DNA of 64,000 bases from positions 124,001-188,000 of the forward strand of contig NZ_WACR01000007.1 of the NCBI RefSeq assembly GCF_008806325.1. The letters run 5' to 3'. The notes beneath the pieces are model-generated. The model saw nothing but the letters and a program-made list of their open reading frames with translations. It did not search any database and had not been told where the DNA came from. Positions 1 through 13,269 of the stretch are shown piece by piece. Origin of the DNA: Salibacter halophilus (GTDB lineage: Bacteria; Bacteroidota; Bacteroidia; Flavobacteriales_G; Salibacteraceae). Within the stretch, counting starts at the first letter, position 1, and the number at the start of each line of letters is the position of its first letter. A program made the position numbers and the translations under genes.

Positions 1-248
1 ATGAGCTCATCAATTGTTTCGTATTTGACGTACTCATATTCAGATCCGAGCTGGCCATCAACTAATTGCCAAAGCTCTACGCTCAACCCCTGAATGGTGC
101 CCTGTTCTTCATACACAAACGGAGGAGCCGGCTTGATGCCAACCTTTATCGTTTGTTTTTTTGAATTGAGAGAATCAGCCTCCTGGCTGAATCCAACTGT
201 TGAAAAAATAGCTAGAAGAGGAATCAATAATAACTTGAAGATTTTCAT
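1..248 (-). CDS. Extracellular solute-binding protein, N-terminus only (cut by window edge)
   Basis: This reverse-strand frame opens with an ATG whose A is base 248 and stays open to the window edge, giving 82 codons. Residues 1 to about 22 form a signal peptide (a hydrophobic LLLIPLLAIF core ending near GFSQ). The mature part begins with KVGIKPAPPFVYEEQG followed by a GLSVELWQLV-like segment. This is the typical first strand and helix of family 3 periplasmic solute-binding proteins and of the ligand domain of bacterial glutamate-receptor-like channels. Whether it is a free binding protein or the sensor half of a channel cannot be seen, because the rest lies outside the window. It is on the same strand as pdeM, 38 bases downstream of its stop codon, so the two may be co-transcribed. 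Confidence 0.72.
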   Translation of the reverse strand, partial: MKIFKLLLIPLLAIFSTVGFSQEADSLNSKKQTIKVGIKPAPPFVYEEQGTIQGLSVELWQLVDGQLGSEYEYVKYETIDEL

Positions 249-286
249 ATGCTGCGTTTTGGATAACTCAAATCTAATAAAATGGA

Positions 287-928
287 TTATTTTGATGTTA
301 CGTCTATCACTTCATCGTTTGTCGTGACAAAAACGCGATCACCAGTCTTTGGCTTTAAAATATACTTTCCCGTTAAATCACTGAAAGCCGGCAAAATCCC
401 ATGGCTCTGACAGAAATAAAAACAAGGCAACTTAACGGATTGTTTTCCTTTTCCTTTAAGTCTTACACCCGGATGAATGTGTCCGTAAATATTGTAATGG
501 TCAGATCCTGAGTCATCAGGCTCATGCGTGAATAACAGTTCATCAGTGCGTATTTCAGGAGTGGTTTTGATGTTGTATCGGGCATAATGATGCGGTTTTA
601 GTATGTCGTGATTTCCCTCAATCAACGTGAATTCAACATTTTCAAATGCTGAGATGAACTTTCCAAACTCTTCCCACTCAAGGTTGTAAGTGCTGTGGAA
701 TAAATCTCCAAGAAACCAAACTTCTCGAGGTTGATGTTTTAAAATGAGTTTTTCAAGCTGAACCAAATTGTTAAATCGAGCAGAGCTTGGAATCCCGATT
801 CCGTTTTTCCTAAAGTGACTGATTTTTCCAAGATGCAAGTCGCTGATGATTAGTGTCTTTTCACTTTTCCATAAAAGAGCTCTTTCGGGAAGCAGGTCAA
901 AAGTTTGTGATGCAACAGTTACACGCAT
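287..928 (-). CDS. pdeM: Ligase-associated metallophosphoesterase PdeM
   Basis: A calcineurin-like metallophosphoesterase. The metal-binding motifs appear in order: SDLHLGK, GDLFHS, EGNHD, a THEP segment and GHIHPG. Size (213 residues from the chosen start) and motif spacing fit the PdeM family, which is associated with bacterial DNA ligase and helicase repair genes; no such partner is visible here. The frame is open back to an ATG at 955, but I prefer the ATG at 928 (MRVTVASQTF), because the extra nine residues are Cys-rich and unlike the family N-terminus. The substrate is unknown. A perfect GGTCAGANCC word lies in the gene at 499-508. Confidence 0.8.
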   Translation of the reverse strand: MRVTVASQTFDLLPERALLWKSEKTLIISDLHLGKISHFRKNGIGIPSSARFNNLVQLEKLILKHQPREVWFLGDLFHSTYNLEWEEFGKFISAFENVEFTLIEGNHDILKPHHYARYNIKTTPEIRTDELLFTHEPDDSGSDHYNIYGHIHPGVRLKGKGKQSVKLPCFYFCQSHGILPAFSDLTGKYILKPKTGDRVFVTTNDEVIDVTSK

Positions 929-1044
929 TTTACAAAGATTACAACATGTAATCAATTGATAATTATAAATGTTGAGTTTGAAGAATCAACAAAGCTGTGT
1001 GCATAAGTTGTGGTGTTCGTATAGATGAGTGATTTTAAGTAAGG

Positions 1045-1052
1045 TAAATTTG
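1045..1052 (+). promoter_or_regulatory. Bacteroidota -7 promoter box (TAAATTTG)
   Basis: TAAATTTG matches the Bacteroidota sigma -7 consensus TAnnTTTG and lies 22 bases upstream of the ATG at 1074. No clear TTTG -33 box is seen at the expected distance. Confidence 0.5.
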
Positions 1053-1073
1053 AAGAGTTAAAATAGGGAACTT

Positions 1074-4000
1074 ATGGATAATCGTACAAAAAATTACGCG
1101 AGTTTATTTCTAACTCTTTCTTGCCTTTTTCTTTTATCTGGAGTTTTAAAATCTCAAACTCCTGGTGGTGTAGCAACAACAACTGAAGTTCGTTTTTGGT
1201 ATGACGTTGCGGAGTTTTCTTCGGCTTCAAATAATACCTCAATCAGTACCTGGACCAACAAAGGAGGAAACTCTGAAGATGCAACTCAAAGTTCCGGTTC
1301 TGAGCAACCAACACTCAAAAACAATGCTTCAAACCAGGTTAATGGTTTTCCTGTGATTCGTTTCGATGGAAATAACGATGCATTAGGTATTGCAAATAAT
1401 GGTGATCTCAATGATGGAGGCCCCTGGGACGAGAGAACTTTTAATCTTGTTTTTAAAACTGGAAGTAATACGTCAACACAGCAGGTTTTGTATGAGGAGG
1501 GTGGAACAACAAGAGGTTTTTCATTCATTATTGAAGGTGGACAATTGCATATAAACGCCTGGAATATGAATAATGATGGAGCTGCTTCTCCATGGGGTCT
1601 CGAATCAGAGAACTTCAATATATCATCAAATCAAGAGTATATTTTATCTGTTGTTTACGATGGTGGTACCAGTAGTTCAAACGGGACTATTGATTGTTAT
1701 TTAAATAGTACTCAAACGAAACAACTCAATTCAATAGGTACTTTGTATAATCACACTGATAATGTTGAATTTGGAAACTCTTCATCTACGCTTGACCAAA
1801 ATAGTTCAAGTGTGAACTCTGCCCCTTTTTCAGGAGATATTTTGGAGTTTATTGTTGCTGATTATGAAGTTTCAACAAGTGAAAGAAAAATCATTGAAAA
1901 CTACCTTTCTTCAAAATATGACATCAACATTGGAGCAAATGACTACTATGCTTATGATGGTAGTGGCTATTATTTTGACTTAATTGGTATAGGTCAGGAA
2001 TCAGGACTGTCGAGTCAATCTGCTCAGGGTGAAGGAATGATATCACTTTCAAACCCAACCGGACTTGGAAATTCTGAATACTTATTGATTGCTAATAATT
2101 CAGCTTCTACAAGCTCCTGGTCTACTTCAAATTCACCCGATGCTGCGAATATTGAACATCTCAATGAAGAGTGGAGAGTGTCTGAAATTGGCGAGGTTGG
2201 AGATGTTGATGTGACTGTTGATGGAACACAACTCCCTGGTTTGACAGCAGGGTATAAGGTGGGAATTCTGGTTGATGATGACGGAGACTTTACTTCTGGA
2301 GCTGAACTTTATGAGTTATCTAGCTCAGGAAGTGATTACACCGGAACTGTTAATTTGAATAATGCTGACTACATAAGAGTAGCACAATTTAGAGAGGTTG
2401 TGAGTTTTAACGATCAGAACCAGTCGAGCTCAGAGAGTGTGAATGCAACACCTACTGTATCTATTAACTACGTTCCAACTCAAAACACGACTTTCACAAT
2501 CAATTACAGGACAAATGATGTTTCTGCTACGAGTGGATCTGACTACACTGCAGTTCCAAATGGAAGTTCTAGTGTTACGATTAATGCTGGAGCATCTGAT
2601 GGGAGCTTACCGGCTGTAACGGTGAATAATGATGCAATTGATGAATCTGACGAAACTTTTGAAGTGATTTTGGAAAGTGGTTCAGGATATGTTTTGAATG
2701 CTGACTCTGTGCTCACTTACACGATTAACGATGATGATAGTCCCTACAAATTGTATTTTGACTCCGATACATCATCTGTTAATGAATCAACTTCGAGCAT
2801 TTCAATTCCGGTTAAGCTAAGTGCTCAAAGTTCTTCTGCAGTGAGTGTTGATTACTCGGTTGTTGGCGGAATTGCCACGAGTGGATCTGACTATAACTTA
2901 TCATCGGGGACTTTGAATTTTAGTGCCGGAGATACAGTAGAAAATATTTCAGTTTCTATTGTCAACAATACGAGTTACGAGCCTGATGAAACAGTAGAGA
3001 TTCAATTATCTAATCCATCAGGAGCTGATTTGGATAACGGACCTTCGCCATCGGGAACGGGATTTGTAGAGCACGAGCTCACGATTAAAGATGACGATTT
3101 ACCAGAAGTAGAGTTCGCTAGTTCATCAGCTACTGTTTCAGAATCTGATGGTTCTGTATCGCTTACAGTGAATTTGTCTTCAGCTTTTTCTCAAAACATT
3201 ACGGTAGATTATTCAATTAATGCCGGCTCTGCTTCTCAGGGATCTGATTATACAGGCTCTTCAGGATCAGTAATTATTTTATCTGGGAGCAGTTCAAGTG
3301 ATATTATAATACCAATTGTGAATGACTGTAACATTGAGAGCAGTGAAAACTTTACGGTTGATATCACAAATGTTTCTATTGGTACAATTGGTTCAACAAG
3401 TTCCTCAACAGTCACAATACAAGATGACGATGTTGGTGGTCCGGGAGGAGTAGGATGTGCTTTAAAATTATGGTATAGACCTGATGCCGGAATTACCGGA
3501 GGTGGTTCAGTTTCATCCTGGACAGACGACTCTCAGGGAGTTATTGCCAGCGCAGCAGCATCAAATAATGAGCCTCAATTCAATGGCGGAACCAGCGACA
3601 CAACATTCAATTTTCAAAACTATTTGACATTTGATGGATCAAATGACAGACTGGGAATCGACTTGTCTTATAACTCTGTAAGCCTTTCTAAAATTTACAC
3701 GTTCGTTGCATTTAGAACTAACGAAAGTGGTAATAGCTATAATAGCAATTGGGCATTTCTCGATTTTGATAGATCTGAGTTTTTCAATACTTATATAACA
3801 GGCGATGGAAAAGTAGCCCTTTCTTATAATAGTACAGATATTGAAGGAAGCCCGGGCTTTAATGATAATATGCCACACATAGGGGGATTTGTTTTTGACA
3901 ATTCTTTAAGTGAAGACACAAAGCTCTTTGCTGATGGTGCAACTGAATACTCCAATGATGAAAAAGGAGGATCGTTCCAGGTAGGAGCTAATACTACTCG

Positions 4001-6374
4001 TTATGGCTACATTGGAGATGGATCTGAAGCTTCTTCATTGAATGGTTCCGGTAATAATATTTATTACAAAGGGGACATAGCTGAGATTATCTATGTTGAA
4101 GGGCAAACACTCAGCAGTGTAGAAATCAATCAAATACAGACTTACCTTGCACTCAAGTACGGTGTTACGTTAAACATGACGAATGATCCTGCTACTGGTT
4201 CAACTGATGAGCGCGATTATTTGAACTCAGCAGGAAATGCTGTTTGGGATTATTCTGCAAATAGTGGCAATAACTCTGCAATTGCAGGATTAATAAGAGA
4301 TGATGATGCATCTTTGGAAGTTCTCAAGGCGAGATCAGTAAATGGAGGTGCAATTTTAACAGGTGAAGTATCGTCACTCAGCGATCAGGAGTCAATCGTT
4401 TGGGGCCACAACGGCCAGCCAGTTGAAACAGAAAAAAATGAAACAGGTACTTTAACAACCAAACTCAAAAGAGAATGGAAAGCAACTGAGGTTGGACAAA
4501 CCGGAAACTTAACGCTTAAAGTAGATTTAAGTAATTTAGCTTCCATCCCGTCCAGCAGTAGTGATATTTATTTGCTTACTGATAGTGACGGTGACTTTTC
4601 AAATGCAACAACACTTGCTACTGCTACATCGATAAATGGATCTGAGGTTACATTCAGTAATGTTGATATCGATGATGGAGACTATTTCACAATCGGTTTT
4701 TACGAAGCGGTAATTTGGACAGGTTCAACATGGCAAAACGGGAGTGGATCAGCAAATAGACCAGCAGTAGCTGATTCTACTAGAAAACTCTTTATCAATG
4801 GAAGTGGAGCTAATATTCAATCTGATGCAATAGTTAGTTACGCTGAAATTGCCAGTGGAGCTGATGTCACAATCCTTACAGGAAACAGCCTAACAGTTCA
4901 AAATGAAATCATCAATGATGGAACTGTCACGGTCAACAATTTTGGCTCATTGGTTCAAACTCATTCCGGAGCTAATCAAAACTCAGGTTCAGGAAGCTAT
5001 GAGGTTAAGAAAATAGGAATAGGAAACCCTAACTATTTTAACCTTTGGAGTTCACCTATTCAATCTGCCGATATTTTAAACACATTCAATGGAGCAAATC
5101 CATGTGATGTATTTGTGTTTGATCCGGCTACACAATTGTACAGCCATGACTACACTCAGGGCTTCAGTACAACATGTAATGGAAATCCGGTAACATTTCA
5201 GTCAAATCAGGTGATATCAGGCGGTGACGGAATTATGGATGTTGCAAGAGGGTATTACATTCCGGGTAAATCAGGAGGAACGAGAACATTCACCGGAGAT
5301 GTGAATAACGGAGACTACAACATTTCAATTCAGCAAAACCCCAACCCATCAACACCACAGGCAAACTGGATGGGAGATGATTGGAATTTGATTGGAAACC
5401 CGTATCCATCATCAATTGATGCAGCAGCATTCGTCAATGAAAACTCAAGTGCTATTTCAGGGTCAATTTATTTTTGGGATGACGCGCAGAGTGGCAATTT
5501 TGATGACGGTGACTTTGCTGTTTGGAACACTATGGGCGGAACAAGCTCACCAAATAGTGCGACAAACCCCAACGGGAGCATCGGCTCCGGACAAGGCTTT
5601 TGGGTTGTTGCAAACTCAAACGGTAATGTCGTCTTCAATAACGCAATGCGCAATGACCAAAACGGTCAGTTCTTCAAAAATGACCCCCAGTCAGATCCAA
5701 AAGCATGGCTAACACTTGAAGACAGCGCAGGACTTACCAACCAAATTCTTGTTGGATTTCCTCAAGATGCAACAGATGGTTACGATGATGCCTATGATGC
5801 ATACAAAGAAGAAGGCAATGCGCATATCGCCTTCGGTTCAGTGCTCGATACATTGGGTTATGCGATTCAGGGATTGGCTCCGATTAACCCGGGATCTGAA
5901 AAAGTTGTGGACCTTTATTTACGGTCAGAGCGCAGCGGTGAGCGAACCATTCGTCTTGACTCAGCACTGGCGATGGACGATCACATCATTTACCTGCTAG
6001 ACCGAAAAACAGGCGAGGAGCACGATTTATCAAGTGGAGCATTTACTTTCAGTGAAGACTATTCAATTGATGATAAATCTCGATTTGCGATCGTGTTCAA
6101 GCGTTCACAGAGCACAGGTATAAAAATGGCTTATGAAAATAAGAGCGTAAAAATATTCACCAGGGAAAACTACATAATTGCACGGGTTGAAACAGGTGTA
6201 GAAACTATTAAAAAGATAAAAGTTTACGACCTTACAGGTAGAGCCATCATCGAGCAAAACACAAACGAGAACACCGTTAGAATTAATTCAAGTAACTTAC
6301 CTACCGGTGTTTATGTTATTGGGGTTGATACAGGTGACTCACAAGCGATTAAGCAAAAAGTAGTTATACACTAA
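1074..6374 (+). CDS. Giant T9SS surface protein with LamG-like and Calx-beta domains
   Basis: A 1766-residue exported protein. A signal peptide covers roughly residues 1-28. A concanavalin/LamG-like lectin fold follows (about 40-280; conserved start RFWYDVAEFS...SISTWTNKGG). Three Calx-beta repeats lie near 442-550, 556-670 and 676-785, with the usual SGSDY and D-E-S-D-E-T/E-P-D-E-T calcium-binding loops. A second LamG-like module spans about 793-1030. The tail (from about 1320) is shared with the next gene, and the last 55 residues are a T9SS type A sorting domain (KIKVYDLTGRAI...LPTGVYVIGV...KQKVVIH). The protein is therefore expected to cross the outer membrane by T9SS and sit on the surface or be released, probably as a Ca-dependent adhesin or glycan-binding protein; the ligand is unknown. 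It is followed after 31 bases by its paralogue, probably in one transcript. Confidence 0.85.
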   Translation: MDNRTKNYASLFLTLSCLFLLSGVLKSQTPGGVATTTEVRFWYDVAEFSSASNNTSISTWTNKGGNSEDATQSSGSEQPTLKNNASNQVNGFPVIRFDGNNDALGIANNGDLNDGGPWDERTFNLVFKTGSNTSTQQVLYEEGGTTRGFSFIIEGGQLHINAWNMNNDGAASPWGLESENFNISSNQEYILSVVYDGGTSSSNGTIDCYLNSTQTKQLNSIGTLYNHTDNVEFGNSSSTLDQNSSSVNSAPFSGDILEFIVADYEVSTSERKIIENYLSSKYDINIGANDYYAYDGSGYYFDLIGIGQESGLSSQSAQGEGMISLSNPTGLGNSEYLLIANNSASTSSWSTSNSPDAANIEHLNEEWRVSEIGEVGDVDVTVDGTQLPGLTAGYKVGILVDDDGDFTSGAELYELSSSGSDYTGTVNLNNADYIRVAQFREVVSFNDQNQSSSESVNATPTVSINYVPTQNTTFTINYRTNDVSATSGSDYTAVPNGSSSVTINAGASDGSLPAVTVNNDAIDESDETFEVILESGSGYVLNADSVLTYTINDDDSPYKLYFDSDTSSVNESTSSISIPVKLSAQSSSAVSVDYSVVGGIATSGSDYNLSSGTLNFSAGDTVENISVSIVNNTSYEPDETVEIQLSNPSGADLDNGPSPSGTGFVEHELTIKDDDLPEVEFASSSATVSESDGSVSLTVNLSSAFSQNITVDYSINAGSASQGSDYTGSSGSVIILSGSSSSDIIIPIVNDCNIESSENFTVDITNVSIGTIGSTSSSTVTIQDDDVGGPGGVGCALKLWYRPDAGITGGGSVSSWTDDSQGVIASAAASNNEPQFNGGTSDTTFNFQNYLTFDGSNDRLGIDLSYNSVSLSKIYTFVAFRTNESGNSYNSNWAFLDFDRSEFFNTYITGDGKVALSYNSTDIEGSPGFNDNMPHIGGFVFDNSLSEDTKLFADGATEYSNDEKGGSFQVGANTTRYGYIGDGSEASSLNGSGNNIYYKGDIAEIIYVEGQTLSSVEINQIQTYLALKYGVTLNMTNDPATGSTDERDYLNSAGNAVWDYSANSGNNSAIAGLIRDDDASLEVLKARSVNGGAILTGEVSSLSDQESIVWGHNGQPVETEKNETGTLTTKLKREWKATEVGQTGNLTLKVDLSNLASIPSSSSDIYLLTDSDGDFSNATTLATATSINGSEVTFSNVDIDDGDYFTIGFYEAVIWTGSTWQNGSGSANRPAVADSTRKLFINGSGANIQSDAIVSYAEIASGADVTILTGNSLTVQNEIINDGTVTVNNFGSLVQTHSGANQNSGSGSYEVKKIGIGNPNYFNLWSSPIQSADILNTFNGANPCDVFVFDPATQLYSHDYTQGFSTTCNGNPVTFQSNQVISGGDGIMDVARGYYIPGKSGGTRTFTGDVNNGDYNISIQQNPNPSTPQANWMGDDWNLIGNPYPSSIDAAAFVNENSSAISGSIYFWDDAQSGNFDDGDFAVWNTMGGTSSPNSATNPNGSIGSGQGFWVVANSNGNVVFNNAMRNDQNGQFFKNDPQSDPKAWLTLEDSAGLTNQILVGFPQDATDGYDDAYDAYKEEGNAHIAFGSVLDTLGYAIQGLAPINPGSEKVVDLYLRSERSGERTIRLDSALAMDDHIIYLLDRKTGEEHDLSSGAFTFSEDYSIDDKSRFAIVFKRSQSTGIKMAYENKSVKIFTRENYIIARVETGVETIKKIKVYDLTGRAIIEQNTNENTVRINSSNLPTGVYVIGVDTGDSQAIKQKVVIH

Positions 6375-6405
6375 CCAATATACAAACTAATAATTCGGGG
6401 AAATC

Positions 6406-9387
6406 ATGAACAAAAAACTACAACAACATCAAATTGCTGTGCTTTTCACAACAGCGTTATTTTTTGTTTTCGGCCAAGACTCTTTTTCTCAAACTGGCCC
6501 TGGTGGAGTAAGTGACTCTGCTAATTTGGGCTTATGGCTCGATGCCAGTACGCTTTCATTGAGTGATAACGCCTCTGTTACTTCCTGGACTGACCAATCA
6601 GGAAATGGAAACAATGCAGGACAATCATCAAACTCAAATAAACCATCATTCAATGCTTCAAGTTCGCTTGGTGGTAGGCCTGCGGTACATTTTTCAGGAG
6701 GCACGAACAATTCAACATCTGACTACCTAACAGTTCCTGATGACGATAAACTTGATGGAACCTCAGGGTTGACTTTTTACGCTGTAGTTAGGCCTGATAA
6801 TATGGGTAATCCAGATGTACAAGCAATTTACGGGAAAAGACCTAGTCAAAACTCAAGTAGTGATTGGGCTTATACCTGGTTCTTTTGGAATGGCAATAAT
6901 TTATATCTGGATCTGGATAACAATAACAATCGATTTGGTACGCCTAATTCATATAGCAGTAACACAAACTATATGCTCAACATGACTTTTGATGGATCAT
7001 TGAGTCAGAGCCAGAGAGCTAAAATTTATACTAACGGGAGTTTAAGTAAGACTAATTCTGAAAGCTCGACTAATATCCCTAATAGTAATGTGGACTTGTA
7101 TATTGGCGTAATGGATGATGGTTATGGAAAGTACTTCAGTGGAGATATGGCTGAATTGATGATTTTCACAAAAGCTTTAAATCGAGCTGAGCGAATAATC
7201 ATTGACAACTACCTTGGAGCCAAATACCAAATCTCAATTGCCAATGATCATTTTGCCTATGAGTCTGACTTTGGTTTAGGAGTTATCGGAATTGGTAGAG
7301 CTTCTGATGGTTCAAGCCATTCGGCTTCTCAGGGAAAAGGAATCTTGAAAATCGAAAATCCATCTTCGTTGAATAACAATGACTTTTTATTCATCGGTCA
7401 CAACGATGATGAGCTCGCTACTGTTGATACTTGCGATGCTCCGGGACTTTATGGTAAGCGGATCAAGCGTGCATGGAAAGTTGGCGAATCCAATGAAGTG
7501 GGAACTGTTGATCTCACATTTGACATCAGCTCGTTTTCTGATTTTTCATCTTCAGGATCTGACTATGCGCTTCTCGTTAGTTCAAATGCAACTTTCAAAA
7601 ATGCAACAACTATAACATCTGGTATTTCATTGAGCGGAAATGAGCTTACTATTTCAGGAGTCAATTTAAATGATGGCGATGTCATTACTCTGGCAACAAC
7701 ACAATCAGTTGTTTGGGATGGAGTTTCGTGGAGCAATGGAAGCGGATCTGCCGGATCCCCTTCAAGTGCTGATGCTTCTAAAAAGTTAATCATCAACGGT
7801 TCTTCAGCCTCGCTAAACAACGATGCTTCCTGTGAATGTTTGGAGGTTTTGAGTGGAAACGATTTTACCATTAATAACAGTCAAGACTTAACCGTTTCAT
7901 CAGCAATTGATAATGAAGGAACGATTACTGTTGAGCATACTGGGTCACTGATTCAAACAAATACCGGATCTGACCAAAACACAGGAAACGGGAATTATAT
8001 CATAGAAAAAGACGGACTAGCAAATGACGCTTATTTTAACCTTTGGAGTTCGCCAATTCAGTCTGCTGATATTTTAAACACATTCAATGGAGTAAATCCA
8101 TGCGATGTTTTTGTGTTTGAATCTGACATACAGCTTTACAGCCACGATTTCACACCTGGTTTTAACACGACATGCAATGGCAATCCGGTAACCTTTCAAT
8201 CTGGTGATGTTATTTCAGGCGGAGACGGAATTATGGATGTTGCAAGAGGGTATTATATACCTGGAGCAACTGGAGGAACAAGAACTTTTGATGGTCAGGT
8301 GAATAATGGAAACTTTTCAATCGCAATTACTCAACAGAGTAACCCAAATTCATCTAACGCAAACTGGACAGATGACAACTGGAACCTTATAGGAAATCCT
8401 TATCCGTCATCGATTGATGCCAATGCTTTTTGGACTGAGAATGCCATCAACAACAGTCGCATTTCAGGTGCAATCTACTATTGGGATGATGCACAAACGG
8501 GAAATTTTGATGATGGCGATTTTGCTCAGTGGAATACAATAGGAGCCACTTCTTCGCCAAATAGCAGCGTTTCACCGAACGGGAGCATCGCATCAGGTCA
8601 GGGTTTTTGGGTTGTTGCTGACGCCAACAGCTCAGTGCAGTTCACCAACTCCATGCGCAATGCTCAAAATGATCAGTTTTTTAAAACAAGTTCACAGTCA
8701 GAGCCCAAACTATGGCTAACCGTAGTGGACAGTGCCGGGCTCATGAACCAGTTGCTGATCGGGTTTCCACAAGACGCTACAGATGGTTTCGACAAAATTT
8801 ACGATGCATACAAAGCTGAGGGAAATTCGCATATTGCTTTTGGTTCAGTGCTCGATACATTGGGTTACGCTATTCAGGGACTGGCTCCGGTAGTTCCGGG
8901 ATCTGAGAAAGTTGTAGACCTGTATTTACGGTCAGAGCGCAGCGGGGAGCGAACCATTCGTCTTGACTCAGCACTGGCGATGGATGATCACACAATTTAC
9001 CTTCTCGACAGGCAAACCGGCTCTGAAGTTGAAATTTCGGAATCGGATTACACTTTTACATCTGAAAATCGAATCGACTCAAAATCTCGATTTGCTCTCA
9101 AATTTGTTCGAGATGAAACAACCGGAATCGAGAATGTGAAAACTGACAAAGAGGATCAGGTAAAACTCTTTGCTCACGATAACTTGATTGAGGCATCTGT
9201 TAGAAGAGGTAATGCTAAAATCAATAAACTTCAGGTTTACGACATTGCAGGTCGCGAAGTATTAAATGTTAAAACGAATAGCCAATATATTCAACAACCC
9301 GTTTCAAAGCTGAATGTAGGGGTTTATATCGTTCGTGTTCAGCTCGATAATGGAGCTGATCACAAAAAGAAAATTGTCATTCAGTAA
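6406..9387 (+). CDS. T9SS surface protein with LamG-like domain, tandem paralogue
   Basis: A 993-residue exported protein with a signal peptide (about 1-29), one LamG-like domain (GLWLDASTLSLSDNASVTSWTDQSGNGN, about 43-280) and a C-terminal half, from about residue 542, nearly the same as that of the preceding gene. The shared part starts at YFNLWSSPIQSADILNTFNG, and the protein ends in a T9SS type A sorting domain (KLQVYDIAGREVL...LNVGVYIVRVQ). Unlike its neighbour it has no Calx-beta repeats and only one lectin-like module. It is probably a duplicate whose N-terminal cargo has diverged or been trimmed. A strong hairpin terminator follows 11 bases after the stop. The cargo function is unknown beyond likely carbohydrate or surface binding. 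Confidence 0.84.
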   Translation: MNKKLQQHQIAVLFTTALFFVFGQDSFSQTGPGGVSDSANLGLWLDASTLSLSDNASVTSWTDQSGNGNNAGQSSNSNKPSFNASSSLGGRPAVHFSGGTNNSTSDYLTVPDDDKLDGTSGLTFYAVVRPDNMGNPDVQAIYGKRPSQNSSSDWAYTWFFWNGNNLYLDLDNNNNRFGTPNSYSSNTNYMLNMTFDGSLSQSQRAKIYTNGSLSKTNSESSTNIPNSNVDLYIGVMDDGYGKYFSGDMAELMIFTKALNRAERIIIDNYLGAKYQISIANDHFAYESDFGLGVIGIGRASDGSSHSASQGKGILKIENPSSLNNNDFLFIGHNDDELATVDTCDAPGLYGKRIKRAWKVGESNEVGTVDLTFDISSFSDFSSSGSDYALLVSSNATFKNATTITSGISLSGNELTISGVNLNDGDVITLATTQSVVWDGVSWSNGSGSAGSPSSADASKKLIINGSSASLNNDASCECLEVLSGNDFTINNSQDLTVSSAIDNEGTITVEHTGSLIQTNTGSDQNTGNGNYIIEKDGLANDAYFNLWSSPIQSADILNTFNGVNPCDVFVFESDIQLYSHDFTPGFNTTCNGNPVTFQSGDVISGGDGIMDVARGYYIPGATGGTRTFDGQVNNGNFSIAITQQSNPNSSNANWTDDNWNLIGNPYPSSIDANAFWTENAINNSRISGAIYYWDDAQTGNFDDGDFAQWNTIGATSSPNSSVSPNGSIASGQGFWVVADANSSVQFTNSMRNAQNDQFFKTSSQSEPKLWLTVVDSAGLMNQLLIGFPQDATDGFDKIYDAYKAEGNSHIAFGSVLDTLGYAIQGLAPVVPGSEKVVDLYLRSERSGERTIRLDSALAMDDHTIYLLDRQTGSEVEISESDYTFTSENRIDSKSRFALKFVRDETTGIENVKTDKEDQVKLFAHDNLIEASVRRGNAKINKLQVYDIAGREVLNVKTNSQYIQQPVSKLNVGVYIVRVQLDNGADHKKKIVIQ

Positions 9388-9397
9388 TTGAATTTAT

Positions 9398-9431
9398 GCC
9401 AGTTGGGTTTTCAAAACCCAACTGGTTTTTT
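9398..9431 (+). terminator. Rho-independent terminator after the surface-protein pair
   Basis: A 13-base perfect stem (CCAGTTGGGTTTT with its complement, 9399-9425) is followed by a run of six T residues. It closes the 1074-9387 transcript. Confidence 0.9.
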
Positions 9432-9550
9432 ACTCGTTCCTAAGCCACTAAATAACTTTTATCAATATCACTATAAACCCGCGTTATCGCTGGTGTTTAG
9501 AAAGGTTCTAAATTAGTTTGTCGTGACAATCACATGACAAAAACTCCATG

Positions 9551-9576
9551 ATTACATAGCATTTTTGCAATGTAAT
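9551..9576. promoter_or_regulatory. Inverted repeat at the hemA promoter
   Basis: ATTACAT (9551-9557) and ATGTAAT (9570-9576) are exact inverted arms separated by 12 bases. The spacer contains CATTTTTG (9560-9567), one base off the TAnnTTTG promoter box. The hemA start is at 9588. The arrangement would suit a repressor or activator site over the promoter; the regulator is not identified. Confidence 0.35.
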
Positions 9577-9587
9577 TAAGAGGTGAG

Positions 9588-10820
9588 GTGAGTTTAGATC
9601 GGTTAAAAAGTATAGCATTTACGCATTCAGGAGTAGGACTTGACAAAGTTGCAAAGTTCTTTATTCCTGAAGATGAATATCAGGAGAGGTTTGTTCCACA
9701 CATGGACGATGCCAATCTCGATGAGTTCATGTTCCTTGCTACATGCAACCGATCTGAGTTTTATTTCACTACTGACAAGCCGATCAATAATCACTTTTTA
9801 CGCACTTTTTACCAATCTCTTTACTCAAACTGGAACGATGAAGACCTCGAATGGGCAATTGAAAACACCCAGGTTGTCGATGGTCTCGACTCTGTTCGTC
9901 ACATGTTCAACGTTGCCAGCTCGCTCGATTCGCTCGTTGTGGGTGAGCGCGAAATCATCACCCAGTTTAGAAAAGCGTATGACAAGTTTCAACGCATGGG
10001 TCTGACAGGTGAATTCTTGCGCCTCGCAGAGCGGAAAACAATTGAAACTGCCAAGAAAGTATTCACAGAAACTGATATTGCTAACAGGCCTGTTTCTGTT
10101 GTCAATCTCGCTTACCGTGAACTCGCTGATCGTTTCCTCTCTTACGATGCCAAAATTGTAGTCATTGGAGCCGGAGTAACCAACAAAGCGATGCTTCACA
10201 AGATGAAGAAGCACGGTTATCACGACTTTCATGTGTACAACCGAACACTTGAAAATGCAGAAAAGCTCGTGAGTGAAGTTGGCGGAAAAGCATATTCACT
10301 TGACGACTTAGAAAAAAACGAAGGTTTTGATGCCCTCATTACTTGCACCGGAGCTCCTGATACAATTGTGACTTACGATGTCTATAAAAAGCTCCTTTCG
10401 GGAAGTGAAGAGATGAAGTACGTTGTGGATTTGGCGATTCCAAATGATTTTGATCTCAATATTCTGGACGACCACAAAGTTGACCTTATTGAAGTTGAAA
10501 CGCTCAAGAAAATTGCGAAACAAAATCTAGAGCAACGGAAAAGTGCTATCGTTGACTGCGAAAAAATCATTGACGATAAACTCGCTGAGTTTGAAGAAGC
10601 TTTTGCCGAGCGTCAAATAGAACTGGCAATGCGTGAGGTTCCGCAACAAATAAAAGAAGTTAAGGAAAAGGCAGTTGCTGAGGTTTTTGCCAAACAACTC
10701 TCCTCACTCGATGACAGCAGCAAAGAAGTGATGAACGAAATGCTGAGCTACATGGAACGCAAAGTAAATGCGATCACCATGAAAAAGGCCAAGCAAATCA
10801 TGATGACAAAGAATCGATAA
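9588..10820 (+). CDS. hemA: Glutamyl-tRNA reductase
   Basis: Catalyses NADPH-dependent reduction of glutamyl-tRNA(Glu) to glutamate-1-semialdehyde, the first committed step of C5-pathway haem synthesis. The catalytic Cys lies in TCNRSE (Cys53), followed by the conserved SLVVGEREI loop, a Rossmann segment (VVIGAGVTNKAML, about 192-204) and a C-terminal helical dimerisation domain. Length 410 fits the family. Translation starts at GTG 9588; the first in-frame ATG would remove the conserved N-terminus. hemC and hemD lie 2.5 kb downstream on the same strand, separated by three reverse-strand barrel genes. An inverted repeat at 9551-9576 may control it. Confidence 0.93.
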   Translation: MSLDRLKSIAFTHSGVGLDKVAKFFIPEDEYQERFVPHMDDANLDEFMFLATCNRSEFYFTTDKPINNHFLRTFYQSLYSNWNDEDLEWAIENTQVVDGLDSVRHMFNVASSLDSLVVGEREIITQFRKAYDKFQRMGLTGEFLRLAERKTIETAKKVFTETDIANRPVSVVNLAYRELADRFLSYDAKIVVIGAGVTNKAMLHKMKKHGYHDFHVYNRTLENAEKLVSEVGGKAYSLDDLEKNEGFDALITCTGAPDTIVTYDVYKKLLSGSEEMKYVVDLAIPNDFDLNILDDHKVDLIEVETLKKIAKQNLEQRKSAIVDCEKIIDDKLAEFEEAFAERQIELAMREVPQQIKEVKEKAVAEVFAKQLSSLDDSSKEVMNEMLSYMERKVNAITMKKAKQIMMTKNR

Positions 10821-11063
10821 TGCCCAATATGGGTCAAGGCAAAGGTTAAGTCCCGCAGCAAGTGCGTAGATCTAAGTTCATCTAAGCTCAATGGCTAAGA
10901 TTTACTAAGAGTTGAGGTCAAGATGTTTTGAGGTTTGACTGTTACTGTAGATTTGGAGCTACCTCTTATCTGTGTGAATCAGCTAAATCTGCGGCATCTG
11001 CGTTCAATCTAAAACAGAACTTAAAAGTCATTTGAAAATATCTAATTCTTCAATTTTGAATGA
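10821..11063. other. Gene-free spacer with short repeated words
   Basis: A 243-base spacer between the convergent ends of hemA and a barrel-protein gene. It has no coding frame, RNA gene or terminator I can recognise. It contains repeated short words: ATCTAAG/CTAAG four times between 10868 and 10909, then ATCTGTGTGAATC and ATCTGCGGCATCTGCG between 10967 and 11003. It may be a fragment of an intergenic repeat element. Confidence 0.4.
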
Positions 11064-11825
11064 TTATCTAACATAATCAACTGACTCATCTTCCTTCTCG
11101 AAGTCCATTTTGTACGATAACTTGATTAGAGCCTGCCAAAATGTGGGTCTTGAAGTAGCAGTACCTTGAATTTTGCCATTTGTTGGTGTGCCCTCGTATT
11201 CAAACTTCATTTCACTTTGATCCGTAAACCCGGTTGTATAGCCAAATTGAGTGCTCAGGCGCAGGACATCAAAAAGCCTGAATTGCGGACCAAAAGCTGT
11301 GAGAAATAACACATTCATGTCTCGCTTTTTGTTGATGTCATTAACCCAAAACCTGAAATCACTTTTAGTTTTGGGCCCTATTGGATCCTTTGAGCTTCGT
11401 CCAAGATAATAAGAAACAGAAGATCCAATGAAGCTAAACTCCATGCCACTGGTGAAAAGGAGCCTTACTTTATCGTTACTGCCAAGAGGGATTGAGTAAT
11501 TTGCTCTGAGCGGAATGTTGTGAAGTTGATAAGGTTTAGCGCCTAAAGTGAAACTTAGTTCAGGGATAGTAGATTCAAATGTGATATTTTCTCTTCGGAA
11601 ATTGTAACCGGTTTCAACGGAAAAATGCTCATTAAAAAAATACCCTACAGAAAATCCGATCATGCCATTGGGAGAAAAGGAATTATTAATGTATTTGCCG
11701 CTTTCATTAATTTGGATTTGAGGCTCACACAAAGCGGTTTCAATCGAGAAATTCAATCCTTTTTGAGCGTGAAGTGATACGCTCATTGCCAGGAAAGTGA
11801 AGAGGAGTATTTCTTGTATTCTCAT
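11064..11825 (-). CDS. Outer-membrane beta-barrel protein (third of a tandem set)
   Basis: A 253-residue protein with a signal peptide ending near SLHAQ. The body alternates short amphipathic strands and turns (FSVGYFFNEHFSVETGYNFRRE, LFTSGMEFSFIG, LSTQFGYTTGF). This is typical of small outer-membrane barrels of the OmpW/porin-like type in Bacteroidota. It is the last gene of three overlapping reverse-strand genes and overlaps the preceding stop by four bases (ATGA). It is more diverged than the other two, which resemble each other closely. Function is unknown; such barrels range from structural proteins to small-molecule pores. Confidence 0.68.
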   Translation of the reverse strand: MRIQEILLFTFLAMSVSLHAQKGLNFSIETALCEPQIQINESGKYINNSFSPNGMIGFSVGYFFNEHFSVETGYNFRRENITFESTIPELSFTLGAKPYQLHNIPLRANYSIPLGSNDKVRLLFTSGMEFSFIGSSVSYYLGRSSKDPIGPKTKSDFRFWVNDINKKRDMNVLFLTAFGPQFRLFDVLRLSTQFGYTTGFTDQSEMKFEYEGTPTNGKIQGTATSRPTFWQALIKLSYKMDFEKEDESVDYVR

Positions 11826-12538
11826 TCTTGAAATTGTTTGTTTATGTAATAGTGAAATGTCAATACTAAGCCCAGTCTACCGGTAGAGATTTCGTTATTG
11901 TGAGACTTTGCCTTGTATCTGCTGATAACTTCTCCTTCAAGGTAATCACTGAATCGCAAAAAAGAAGAAATTCTCAACTCAATTGGCCTGGTATCTTGTT
12001 TATTGACCCACCAAACTTTACTTGCCGAAGCGGTAAGTGAAACAAGTGCCCGACCTTTAGCTTCGAGTTCATACCTCGAAGATCGAATAAAACTATTTGT
12101 ACTGTTTACAGCTTGATGAGAAGTTAAACTTGAGCTCATCATCTTTTCAAAATTAACGCCAAATAAGAAGAAAGCATTTGACCAAAGCTCTTTTCTCAAT
12201 TGAGCGCTAAAATTATAACCCGGGAAAGTAAATGTTTTAGGCATTGCAGTGTAGTCTATATCATTTTCATCATCCTTGTAAGTAAAACGGTGATTAAAAG
12301 AAAAACTTTTTAAAGCAACAGATAACTCAAGAAAGGTAGATTCATTAATCTTAAAGTTTTTTCCGTACCCTATTAATGGGGAAGGTGATGGGATTGCTGT
12401 ATATTCATAAGGATCCTGATCAGATATTAAAACACGGGGCTCAAGGTTTAAACCTGTGTAAAAGTTTCCTCCATTTTGAGCAAAGGAAATTATCTGTAAA
12501 AAAAAGAATGAGAGTAAATAGAAGTGTCGTATTCTCAT
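11822..12538 (-). CDS. Outer-membrane beta-barrel paralogue (second of a tandem set)
   Basis: A 238-residue protein with a signal peptide ending at SFAQ. It is clearly paralogous to the next gene upstream: both have NGGNFYTGLNLEPR/KGGYFRFGTSLEPR starts, PSPLIGYGK/PSLSIGYGK, ELWSNAFF/ELWANTFF, KVWWVNKQDTRPIELR/KIWWVNEQNTRPIELE and an ISTGRLGL/ISTGRLGV strand near the end. It probably forms an 8- to 10-strand barrel. It overlaps its neighbours by four bases on each side, so translation is likely coupled. No specific function can be assigned. Confidence 0.68.
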   Translation of the reverse strand: MRIRHFYLLSFFFLQIISFAQNGGNFYTGLNLEPRVLISDQDPYEYTAIPSPSPLIGYGKNFKINESTFLELSVALKSFSFNHRFTYKDDENDIDYTAMPKTFTFPGYNFSAQLRKELWSNAFFLFGVNFEKMMSSSLTSHQAVNSTNSFIRSSRYELEAKGRALVSLTASASKVWWVNKQDTRPIELRISSFLRFSDYLEGEVISRYKAKSHNNEISTGRLGLVLTFHYYINKQFQE

Positions 12539-13269
12539 TCTTCAATTTGTTTGTTTAGATAAACGTGAAAAGAGAGCATAACCCCAAGCCTGCCGGTTGA
12601 AATATCATCAACATATTTCTTAGATTTGTTGATGCTGGTAGCCTGACCTTCAAAATGGTCGCTAAATCGCAAAAATGATGATAGCTCCAGTTCAATTGGC
12701 CTTGTATTTTGCTCATTAACCCACCATATTTTACTTGCAGCAGCATTGAGGGAAAACAGAGGCGCATTTCTGCTTCTTAAATCAAAGTTTGCGTTGATTG
12801 GATCAGGATCGTCAGATATTGTGTGAGTAGAAGAATATCCGGCACTGAGAAGTTTTTCAACTCCAATTCCAAAGGAAAAAAAGGTGTTTGCCCACAATTC
12901 TTTTTTGAGAGTCAAGCTTACTTCATATCCGGGAAAAGGCATCAATCCAGAGTAATCAAGAGAAGTGAATTCTTCACCTTCATCATCTGTATATTTAAAT
13001 CTTTGAGCAAAAGGAAAGCTCTTTAATGACCCAGATAAGTCGATGAAAGTTTCATTATTGATTTGAAATACCTTCCCGTATCCAATTGATAAAGAGGGGG
13101 CAGGGTAAGCGGTGAATTCGAAAGGACCCTGATTGGGAATAAATGTGCGAGGTTCTAAACTAGTCCCAAACCTGAAATATCCACCTTTTTGAGCATTTGA
13201 CTGATAGCACAGTAAACATAAAAGGAGAAAAGTAGTTAGCTTTAGAATTAAGTCTTTACGGGTAGGCAT
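12535..13269 (-). CDS. Outer-membrane beta-barrel paralogue (first of a tandem set)
   Basis: A 244-residue protein with a signal peptide (hydrophobic LTTFLLLCLLCYQ, cleavage near SNAQ) and a predicted outer-membrane barrel. It is first in the reverse-strand trio and the closest relative of the second. A TAnnTTTG box on the reverse strand at 13277-13284 lies directly upstream of the ATG at 13269, leaving almost no 5' leader. The trio sits between hemA and hemC, which belong to one pathway, so it looks like an insertion into a haem cluster. The role is unknown. Confidence 0.68.
   Translation of the reverse strand: MPTRKDLILKLTTFLLLCLLCYQSNAQKGGYFRFGTSLEPRTFIPNQGPFEFTAYPAPSLSIGYGKVFQINNETFIDLSGSLKSFPFAQRFKYTDDEGEEFTSLDYSGLMPFPGYEVSLTLKKELWANTFFSFGIGVEKLLSAGYSSTHTISDDPDPINANFDLRSRNAPLFSLNAAASKIWWVNEQNTRPIELELSSFLRFSDHFEGQATSINKSKKYVDDISTGRLGVMLSFHVYLNKQIEE

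Follow-up and report, generated by a model that had tools for sequence, protein, structure and literature searches.

Near the start of the window, the 64,000-nucleotide stretch of Salibacter halophilus DNA analyzed here, two giant open reading frames lie next to one another on the same strand with 31 bp between them. Their products, A (1766 aa) and B (993 aa), are T9SS type A surface proteins that probably act as adhesins. Both N-termini look hydrophobic by eye, and both proteins match Por_Secre_tail above the Pfam cut-off of 27 bits (A, 33 bits; B, 29.9 bits) and TIGR04183 above the NCBIfam cut-off of 23 (A, 38.3 bits; B, 34.8 bits), which bears out the original prediction of two adjacent giant T9SS proteins. 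The two genes comprise the following features.

1074..6374, plus strand: gene A, T9SS type A surface protein, 1766 aa (open reading frame, Pfam)
1074..2402, plus strand: head 1 of A, LamG-like unit and following domain (BLASTP against the B head, 4e-38)
2403..3437, plus strand: three Calx-beta repeats of A, outer limits approximate (PF03160, E 8e-44)
3438..4733, plus strand: head 2 of A, second LamG-like unit (BLASTP against the B head, 4e-19)
4908..6104, plus strand: internal RemA/RemZ-type module of A, conserved core (alignment with B)
5835..5993, plus strand: silent-identity island of A, candidate recent conversion tract (144/159 nt, 41/49 silent codons)
6141..6371, plus strand: T9SS type A CTD of A, start approximate from the alignment with B, not homogenised (PF18962, TIGR04183)
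6406..9387, plus strand: gene B, T9SS type A surface protein, 993 aa (open reading frame, Pfam, phmmer)
6406..7713, plus strand: head of B, with Laminin_G_3 and a following domain common to both A heads (PF13385)
7900..9111, plus strand: internal RemA/RemZ-type module of B, no Pfam model (phmmer, structure prediction)
8842..9000, plus strand: B partner of the silent-identity island (alignment with A island)
9154..9384, plus strand: CTD beta-sandwich of B (structural match to the RemA and RemZ CTDs)

Protein A thus runs from head 1 through three Calx-beta repeats, head 2 and a RemA/RemZ-type module to the CTD, and protein B from a LamG head through the module to the CTD. Pfam recognizes PF03160 in three stretches of A, the best spanning residues 673–786, and a single Laminin_G_3 domain in B (PF13385, residues 103–262, E 9.6e-15); it returns no match to either of the two heads of A. 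Residues 1–443 and 789–1220 of A align by BLASTP with the B head at 30% (4e-38) and 26% identity (4e-19), respectively, and it is through this alignment that the two A heads may be called LamG-like. The head content originally proposed, two LamG-like modules with three Calx-beta repeats in one protein and one LamG-like module in the other, was recovered by Pfam for the repeats and for B, and by BLASTP for the LamG-like pair of A. Given that both A heads align with the B head, A has the layout of B, preceded by one more head and the Calx-beta block.

The C-terminal ~540 residues of B are homologous to two T9SS type A substrates of Flavobacterium johnsoniae, RemA (phmmer 1.9e-43, 8gl6_D; PDB 8GL6) and RemZ (Fjoh_0803; phmmer 8.4e-40, 8gl8_D; PDB 8GL8). 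This homology was detected directly for B and extends to the module of A by alignment with B over the same region. The RemA match in B starts only at residue 455, and residues 1–443 and 789–1109 of A give no RemA match at E<=1. Because the N-terminal region is unlike that of RemA, which holds a lectin domain, A and B are classed as sharers of the module and not as RemA. In an AlphaFold model covering the final 495 residues of B (pLDDT 85), the CTD occupies model residues 419–495, and it matches those solved for RemA (Z 11.7, rmsd 1.6, 75 aligned) and RemZ (Z 9.9, rmsd 1.8, 73 aligned). Modeled alone, the ~400-residue module of B is predicted to be beta-rich (pLDDT 86, pTM 0.83). It has no Pfam match, and its best hits among solved structures reach a Foldseek E of 0.043 and a VIA Z of 4.6 (rmsd 3.0, 85 aligned); judged from this model, the module appears to have no clear solved-fold counterpart, from which novelty of the fold does not follow.

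The tails of A and B had been described as nearly identical. Over 495 residues they are instead 66% identical, most of their silent sites are near saturation, and the CTD columns are 35% identical. On alignment, the conserved part is the internal ~400-residue module, with 63–92% protein identity, and not the secretion signal. Sliding dS in 60-codon windows is mostly above 1 or saturated. The minimum of 0.45–0.51 is confined to two windows, with starts at 5778 and 5838, and the next-lowest values come at 4938 (0.75) and 5898 (0.86); silent divergence along the pair is therefore uneven, and the uniform divergence that would have refuted the original prediction is not seen. The DNA at 5915–5985 and 8922–8992, earlier described as almost unchanged, is identical at 68 of 71 bases; the longest run of identical protein in that region measures 32 residues, and the longest exact DNA run between A and B is 38 bp. 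The best silent-identity segment is the island listed above, 5835–5993 against 8842–9000, with 41 of 49 silent codons and 144 of 159 bases identical. A maximal-segment permutation test assigns it P 0.004 on the whole alignment, or ~0.04 after a simple correction for the eleven tandem T9SS pairs tested in the genome, and 0.02–0.03 on the tail alone. Compared post hoc with the rest of the module (117/228), the island stands out at a Fisher p of 1.6e-5; in a permutation test restricted to the module, A/B is absent from the pairs with P<0.02. The conversion signal of A/B itself is thus modest, with P from 0.004 to 0.03 depending on the region.

The island columns were also compared in other pairs. 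Silent identity there is 0.47 (1843/3961) in non-adjacent pairs of the same genome, against 0.46 in the rest of the module, and 0.37 (586/1593) when A or B is compared with other genomes, against 0.42 in the rest; codon usage alone predicts 0.36–0.39. Since these controls lie at baseline, the island is specific to the pair and not to the position, and it probably represents a conversion tract in A/B. Outside the island the module retains a silent identity of 117/228, where codon usage predicts 0.39 (p 1.6e-4), compared with 41/104 in the heads, so that this part of the module, like the island, seems more recent than the heads. Silent sites of the conserved tail outside the recent tract approach saturation, and an older common origin together with purifying selection would explain most of its protein similarity.

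An old duplication followed by purifying selection alone, with the module constrained, the heads and CTDs unconstrained and the low-dS patch a product of chance, is an account that we consider unlikely while according it real weight. A chance patch is hard to reconcile with 41/49 identical silent codons in this pair against 0.37–0.47 in the controls, or with the silent excess in the module outside the island, and selection alone leaves the 1.0–1.4 kb of exact DNA in relatives (below) unexplained. It does accommodate high protein identity on mostly saturated silent sites, an island P of just 0.02–0.03 within the tail, and a module more conserved than the CTD in non-adjacent pairs as well, where the median core minus CTD identity is 0.18.

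The genome designated G002 holds an orthologue of A, 68.6% identical over 1349 residues, in which the long head array is kept. Over the first 80 module residues, at which the G002 contig ends, A and B are 66% identical, A and the G002 orthologue 70%, and B and the orthologue 68%; over those residues only, A and B seem to have parted no earlier than the two species did, despite the far greater divergence of their heads. In the window, A and B adjoin hemA. The 2 kb upstream of the G002 orthologue, the one side available before the contig ends, shows no match to the window neighbours, and the 7.7-kb G002 contig with hemA carries no such module-bearing gene; the idea of a shared locus for A/B in G002 was set aside. 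In G001, of the same genus, a different tandem pair of module genes (L055 on C233, 5560–10263) lies ~2 kb from hemA, its identity to A and B being just ~30%. A phase switch through inverted repeats was likewise dropped, as positions 1–12000 contain a single inverted pair of 30 nt at 73%. Further along the window, three consecutive minus-strand ORFs of 238–253 residues occupy 11064–13269, and by eye those at 11822–12538 and 12535–13269 look like tandem paralogues with signal peptides.

We searched 35 genomes of the family and obtained matches in 27, many of the strong ones in tandem arrays. Further copies, for which the original prediction proposed a search, exist: 70 module-bearing ORFs were gathered, four of which were kept out of the module tree, and relatives carry the same module under different heads. 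In G003, a sister-genus genome on one contig of 4.1 Mb, genes #2 and #3 share an exact DNA run of 1400 bp that begins ~240 residues before the module and extends into it. Their silent-identical block measures 572/573, identity in the middle of the heads falls as low as 23–28%, and their CTDs have 98% protein identity with 50/62 silent sites identical. Genes #3 and #4 of G005 share 1004 exact bp and a silent block of 321/321, flanked by heads of 0.25–0.47 identity by window and CTDs of 0.35–0.40. In G005 #1/#2 the CTD is 90% identical, and in the C233 pair of G001 the CTD is more alike than the core (0.81 vs 0.60). Kilobase-long exact tracts with sharp edges thus uphold, for the family, the proposal of gene conversion under diverging heads. 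Its extension to the secretion and anchor part fails for A/B, given the 35% identity of the CTDs, and the core is also more alike than the CTD in 21 of the 23 adjacent pairs compared in the window's family (one of the 24 pairs, having no CTD columns, was left out).

The G007 copies at C19:184679–188314 and C20:7776–10244 (L082, L173) have 98% silent identity across module and CTD, and may reflect a recent duplication, conversion at a distance, or two contigs of one array. Contigs G002:C161 and G001:C358 end inside the module, and in G025 a contig that ends there overlaps two contigs starting there by the same exact 22 bases, as follows.

L073 end, L180 end, L187 start (contigs C34, C12, C27): assembly fork of G025, lying inside the module

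Trees of heads and modules disagree. Among five heads, with a long-branch warning for G004#1, G003#2 groups with G004#3 (100/100), and an AU test rejects the clade {G003#2,G003#3} at 3e-75. The modules of G003#2 and G003#3 are the same, and AU tests on the module reject the groupings that the head types would give (1.7e-5 and 2.5e-75); by trees and AU tests the module, unlike the heads, is closer within the genome than to its orthologue. On a longer head slice G003#2 is 0.61 identical to G003#3 vs 0.58 to G004#3, a value inflated by the ~77 converted residues of G003#2/#3 that this slice held; the AU test used a shorter one. From this conflict the two G003 heads look older than the species split, with the module overwritten in place.

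The same trees bear on a recent whole-gene duplication followed by replacement of the head, and of the CTD, through domain shuffling or transfer, with no conversion of a resident module. Such replacement would look alike in a single genome, the heads being modular (LamG, Calx-beta and others), and head and module combinations are indeed mixed across G003, G004 and G005. The nearest head relatives of G003 #2 and #3, however, are G004#3 and G005#2 while their modules are identical, which would require that resident heads were re-acquired, and G002 has retained the long array of heads seen in A; we rate this account as improbable. Constraint at the nucleotide level, from RNA structure or a codon signal that fixes the silent sites of the island, has nothing beyond the low divergence itself in its favor and is scarcely credible, because these columns do not rise above baseline in the non-adjacent and cross-genome comparisons given above.

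Gene conversion between neighbours accords with the distribution of similarity within genomes. Median silent identity of the module is 0.50 in 24 adjacent pairs vs 0.45 in 224 non-adjacent pairs of the same genome (p 1.2e-4), and median protein identity 0.64 vs 0.40 (p 6e-9), the adjacent pairs coming from few genomes and so not being independent. Taken genome by genome, adjacent pairs have the higher median protein identity in all 8 genomes and the higher median silent identity in 6 of 8, G004 and G025 showing no silent-site excess. The higher protein identity of neighbours could follow from tandem duplication alone as well. In the maximal-segment test restricted to the module, 5 of 24 adjacent pairs fall below 0.05 and 3 below 0.01, compared with 11 and none of 207 non-adjacent same-genome pairs and 24 and 7 of 364 cross-genome pairs of the same genus (pairs with <60 informative codons were left out of the identity comparisons and those with <120 out of this test). 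The remaining 19 of the 24 adjacent pairs have no significant island inside the module by this test; fresh events are thus rare and most of the similarity is older.

A wider search of genome contigs with the B tail as a single query confirmed no relative, and a search with a ten-row alignment confirmed at least 470, the best 80 of which were kept and represent 78 loci. These hold 41 adjacent same-strand pairs, seven of them matching genomes already counted (2 of the 41, without a CTD, were left out). Among the 34 other pairs from these best 80 matches, the core is more alike than the CTD in only 21, and the CTD is at least as alike in 13; at L103, L131 and L142 CTD identity reaches 0.94–1.00. 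Exclusion of the CTD is therefore typical of the window's family and not of all relatives. Also among the best 80, silent identity steps up to a high level beyond the diverged heads in four Flavobacteriaceae pairs, from Formosa sp. L2A11 (complete genome), an uncultured Algibacter, Bizionia arctica and Lacinutrix himadriensis, and in the last three the block includes the CTD.

The window's own genome (3.12 Mb) contains 126 Por_Secre_tail matches at E<=0.001, and GldJ, too, lies over the cut-off. Of its eleven tandem T9SS pairs tested for silent-identity tracts, a MAM/fn3 pair (C5, L182:911-6724) has 103/112 identical silent codons in an internal block of 122 codons (P 0.0005) flanked by near-saturated sequence, and appears to be a clearer conversion tract than A/B. 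A second pair, one member of which has FG-GAP repeats (C2, L185:1-4082), has a silent block of 20/20 (P 0.008); its heads are very different, and silent identity reaches 0.72–0.78 in the last three windows of the C-terminal part. Another RemA-type tandem pair lies on the window's contig (C7:54671-61180, L057), with a module 83% identical, pre-module parts 27–29%, a CTD 34% and no significant silent island; for this pair and seven other tandem T9SS pairs, P was not below 0.05. Tracts in tandem pairs of other make-up indicate that conversion between tandem surface genes is a wider habit of this genome, and conversion may follow from tandem similarity without any special function of the module.

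We propose, with a probability of roughly 0.7, that an old duplication was followed by repeated conversion of the module between neighbours while the heads and, in the window's family, mostly the CTDs as well diverged. Support for gene conversion of C-terminal modules beneath diverging heads is good for the gene family and moderate for the pair A and B. The two genes would stem from one old duplication, after which homologous recombination between neighbouring copies, presumably by a RecA-type enzyme, would repeatedly copy the internal module from gene to gene, leaving the heads and, for the most part in this family, also the CTDs to evolve separately. In A/B the last visible copying would have been short (~160 bp), with the rest of the module largely re-diverged, and the sister-genus arrays, with 1.0–1.4 kb of exact identity, would capture the same process when fresh. 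The LamG/Calx-beta heads would face outwards, the CTD would serve export and attachment via the T9SS, and the module would most likely perform one job common to all heads, as a stalk or as a dock for a common surface partner.

Concerted evolution by gene conversion is known in tandem gene families. The present family resembles it in that paralogues within a genome, as in G003#2/#3, are closer than orthologues, with sharp edges and a bias toward neighbours, and differs in that only part of the gene is involved, the heads and, in the window's family, mostly the secretion signal diverging. Rhs and similar proteins join a conserved core to a variable tip and recombine through the constant part; here too a constant and a variable part are joined, but the variable part is N-terminal. 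In Porphyromonas gingivalis, the part of PMC5266723 consulted describes domain rearrangement and allelic exchange of surface proteins (gingipain/HagA adhesin domains) and mentions gene conversion through homologous recombination. As in the A/B family, T9SS cargo there gives rise to variant combinations by recombination; that variation is between strains, whereas in the present family neighbouring genes of one genome come to share a homogenised C-terminal module under different heads. Among the open-licence papers listed on T9SS and adhesin gene conversion and concerted evolution, we found none in which homogenisation of RemA-type modules between tandem genes is described: the tandem genes in the consulted part of PMC9950754 resemble polysaccharide-export genes, and in PMC5808330 and PMC5714932 'gene conversion' occurs in the reference lists only. 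Conversion in tandem families and recombination of P. gingivalis T9SS surface proteins are thus known, and homogenisation of a RemA/RemZ-type module is, as far as we found, newly described.

The role of the module may be glimpsed in RemA. As reported in a portion of PMC12618676, RemA-HaloTag with its own CTD forms mobile and static foci, and SprB is static when it bears the RemA CTD; mobility may therefore be conferred by something in RemA besides the CTD. By analogy this hints that the body of RemA, perhaps its RemA/RemZ-type module, does so; the authors emphasise the CTD and, in the parts consulted, draw no conclusion on the module and mobility.

A further reading, speculative and in our estimate rather doubtful, takes the module as a recombination platform: direct repeats, long and identical, within tandem genes would let cells delete, multiply and re-pair heads with CTDs, and docking would select for constancy. 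If this were true, a RecA-type diversification system for surface adhesins would operate across the Flavobacteriales, and all heads would dock through the module on one common surface partner, whether moving or static. Under conversion between neighbours itself, homogenisation leads one to expect that sequence assemblies will often break off within the module in arrays of this kind, as has happened in some contigs. A single protein of the window's family would consist of units with separate histories, namely a variable head, a shared module and a variable sorting signal, and the prediction is that shared surface behaviour is carried by the module and not by the CTD alone.
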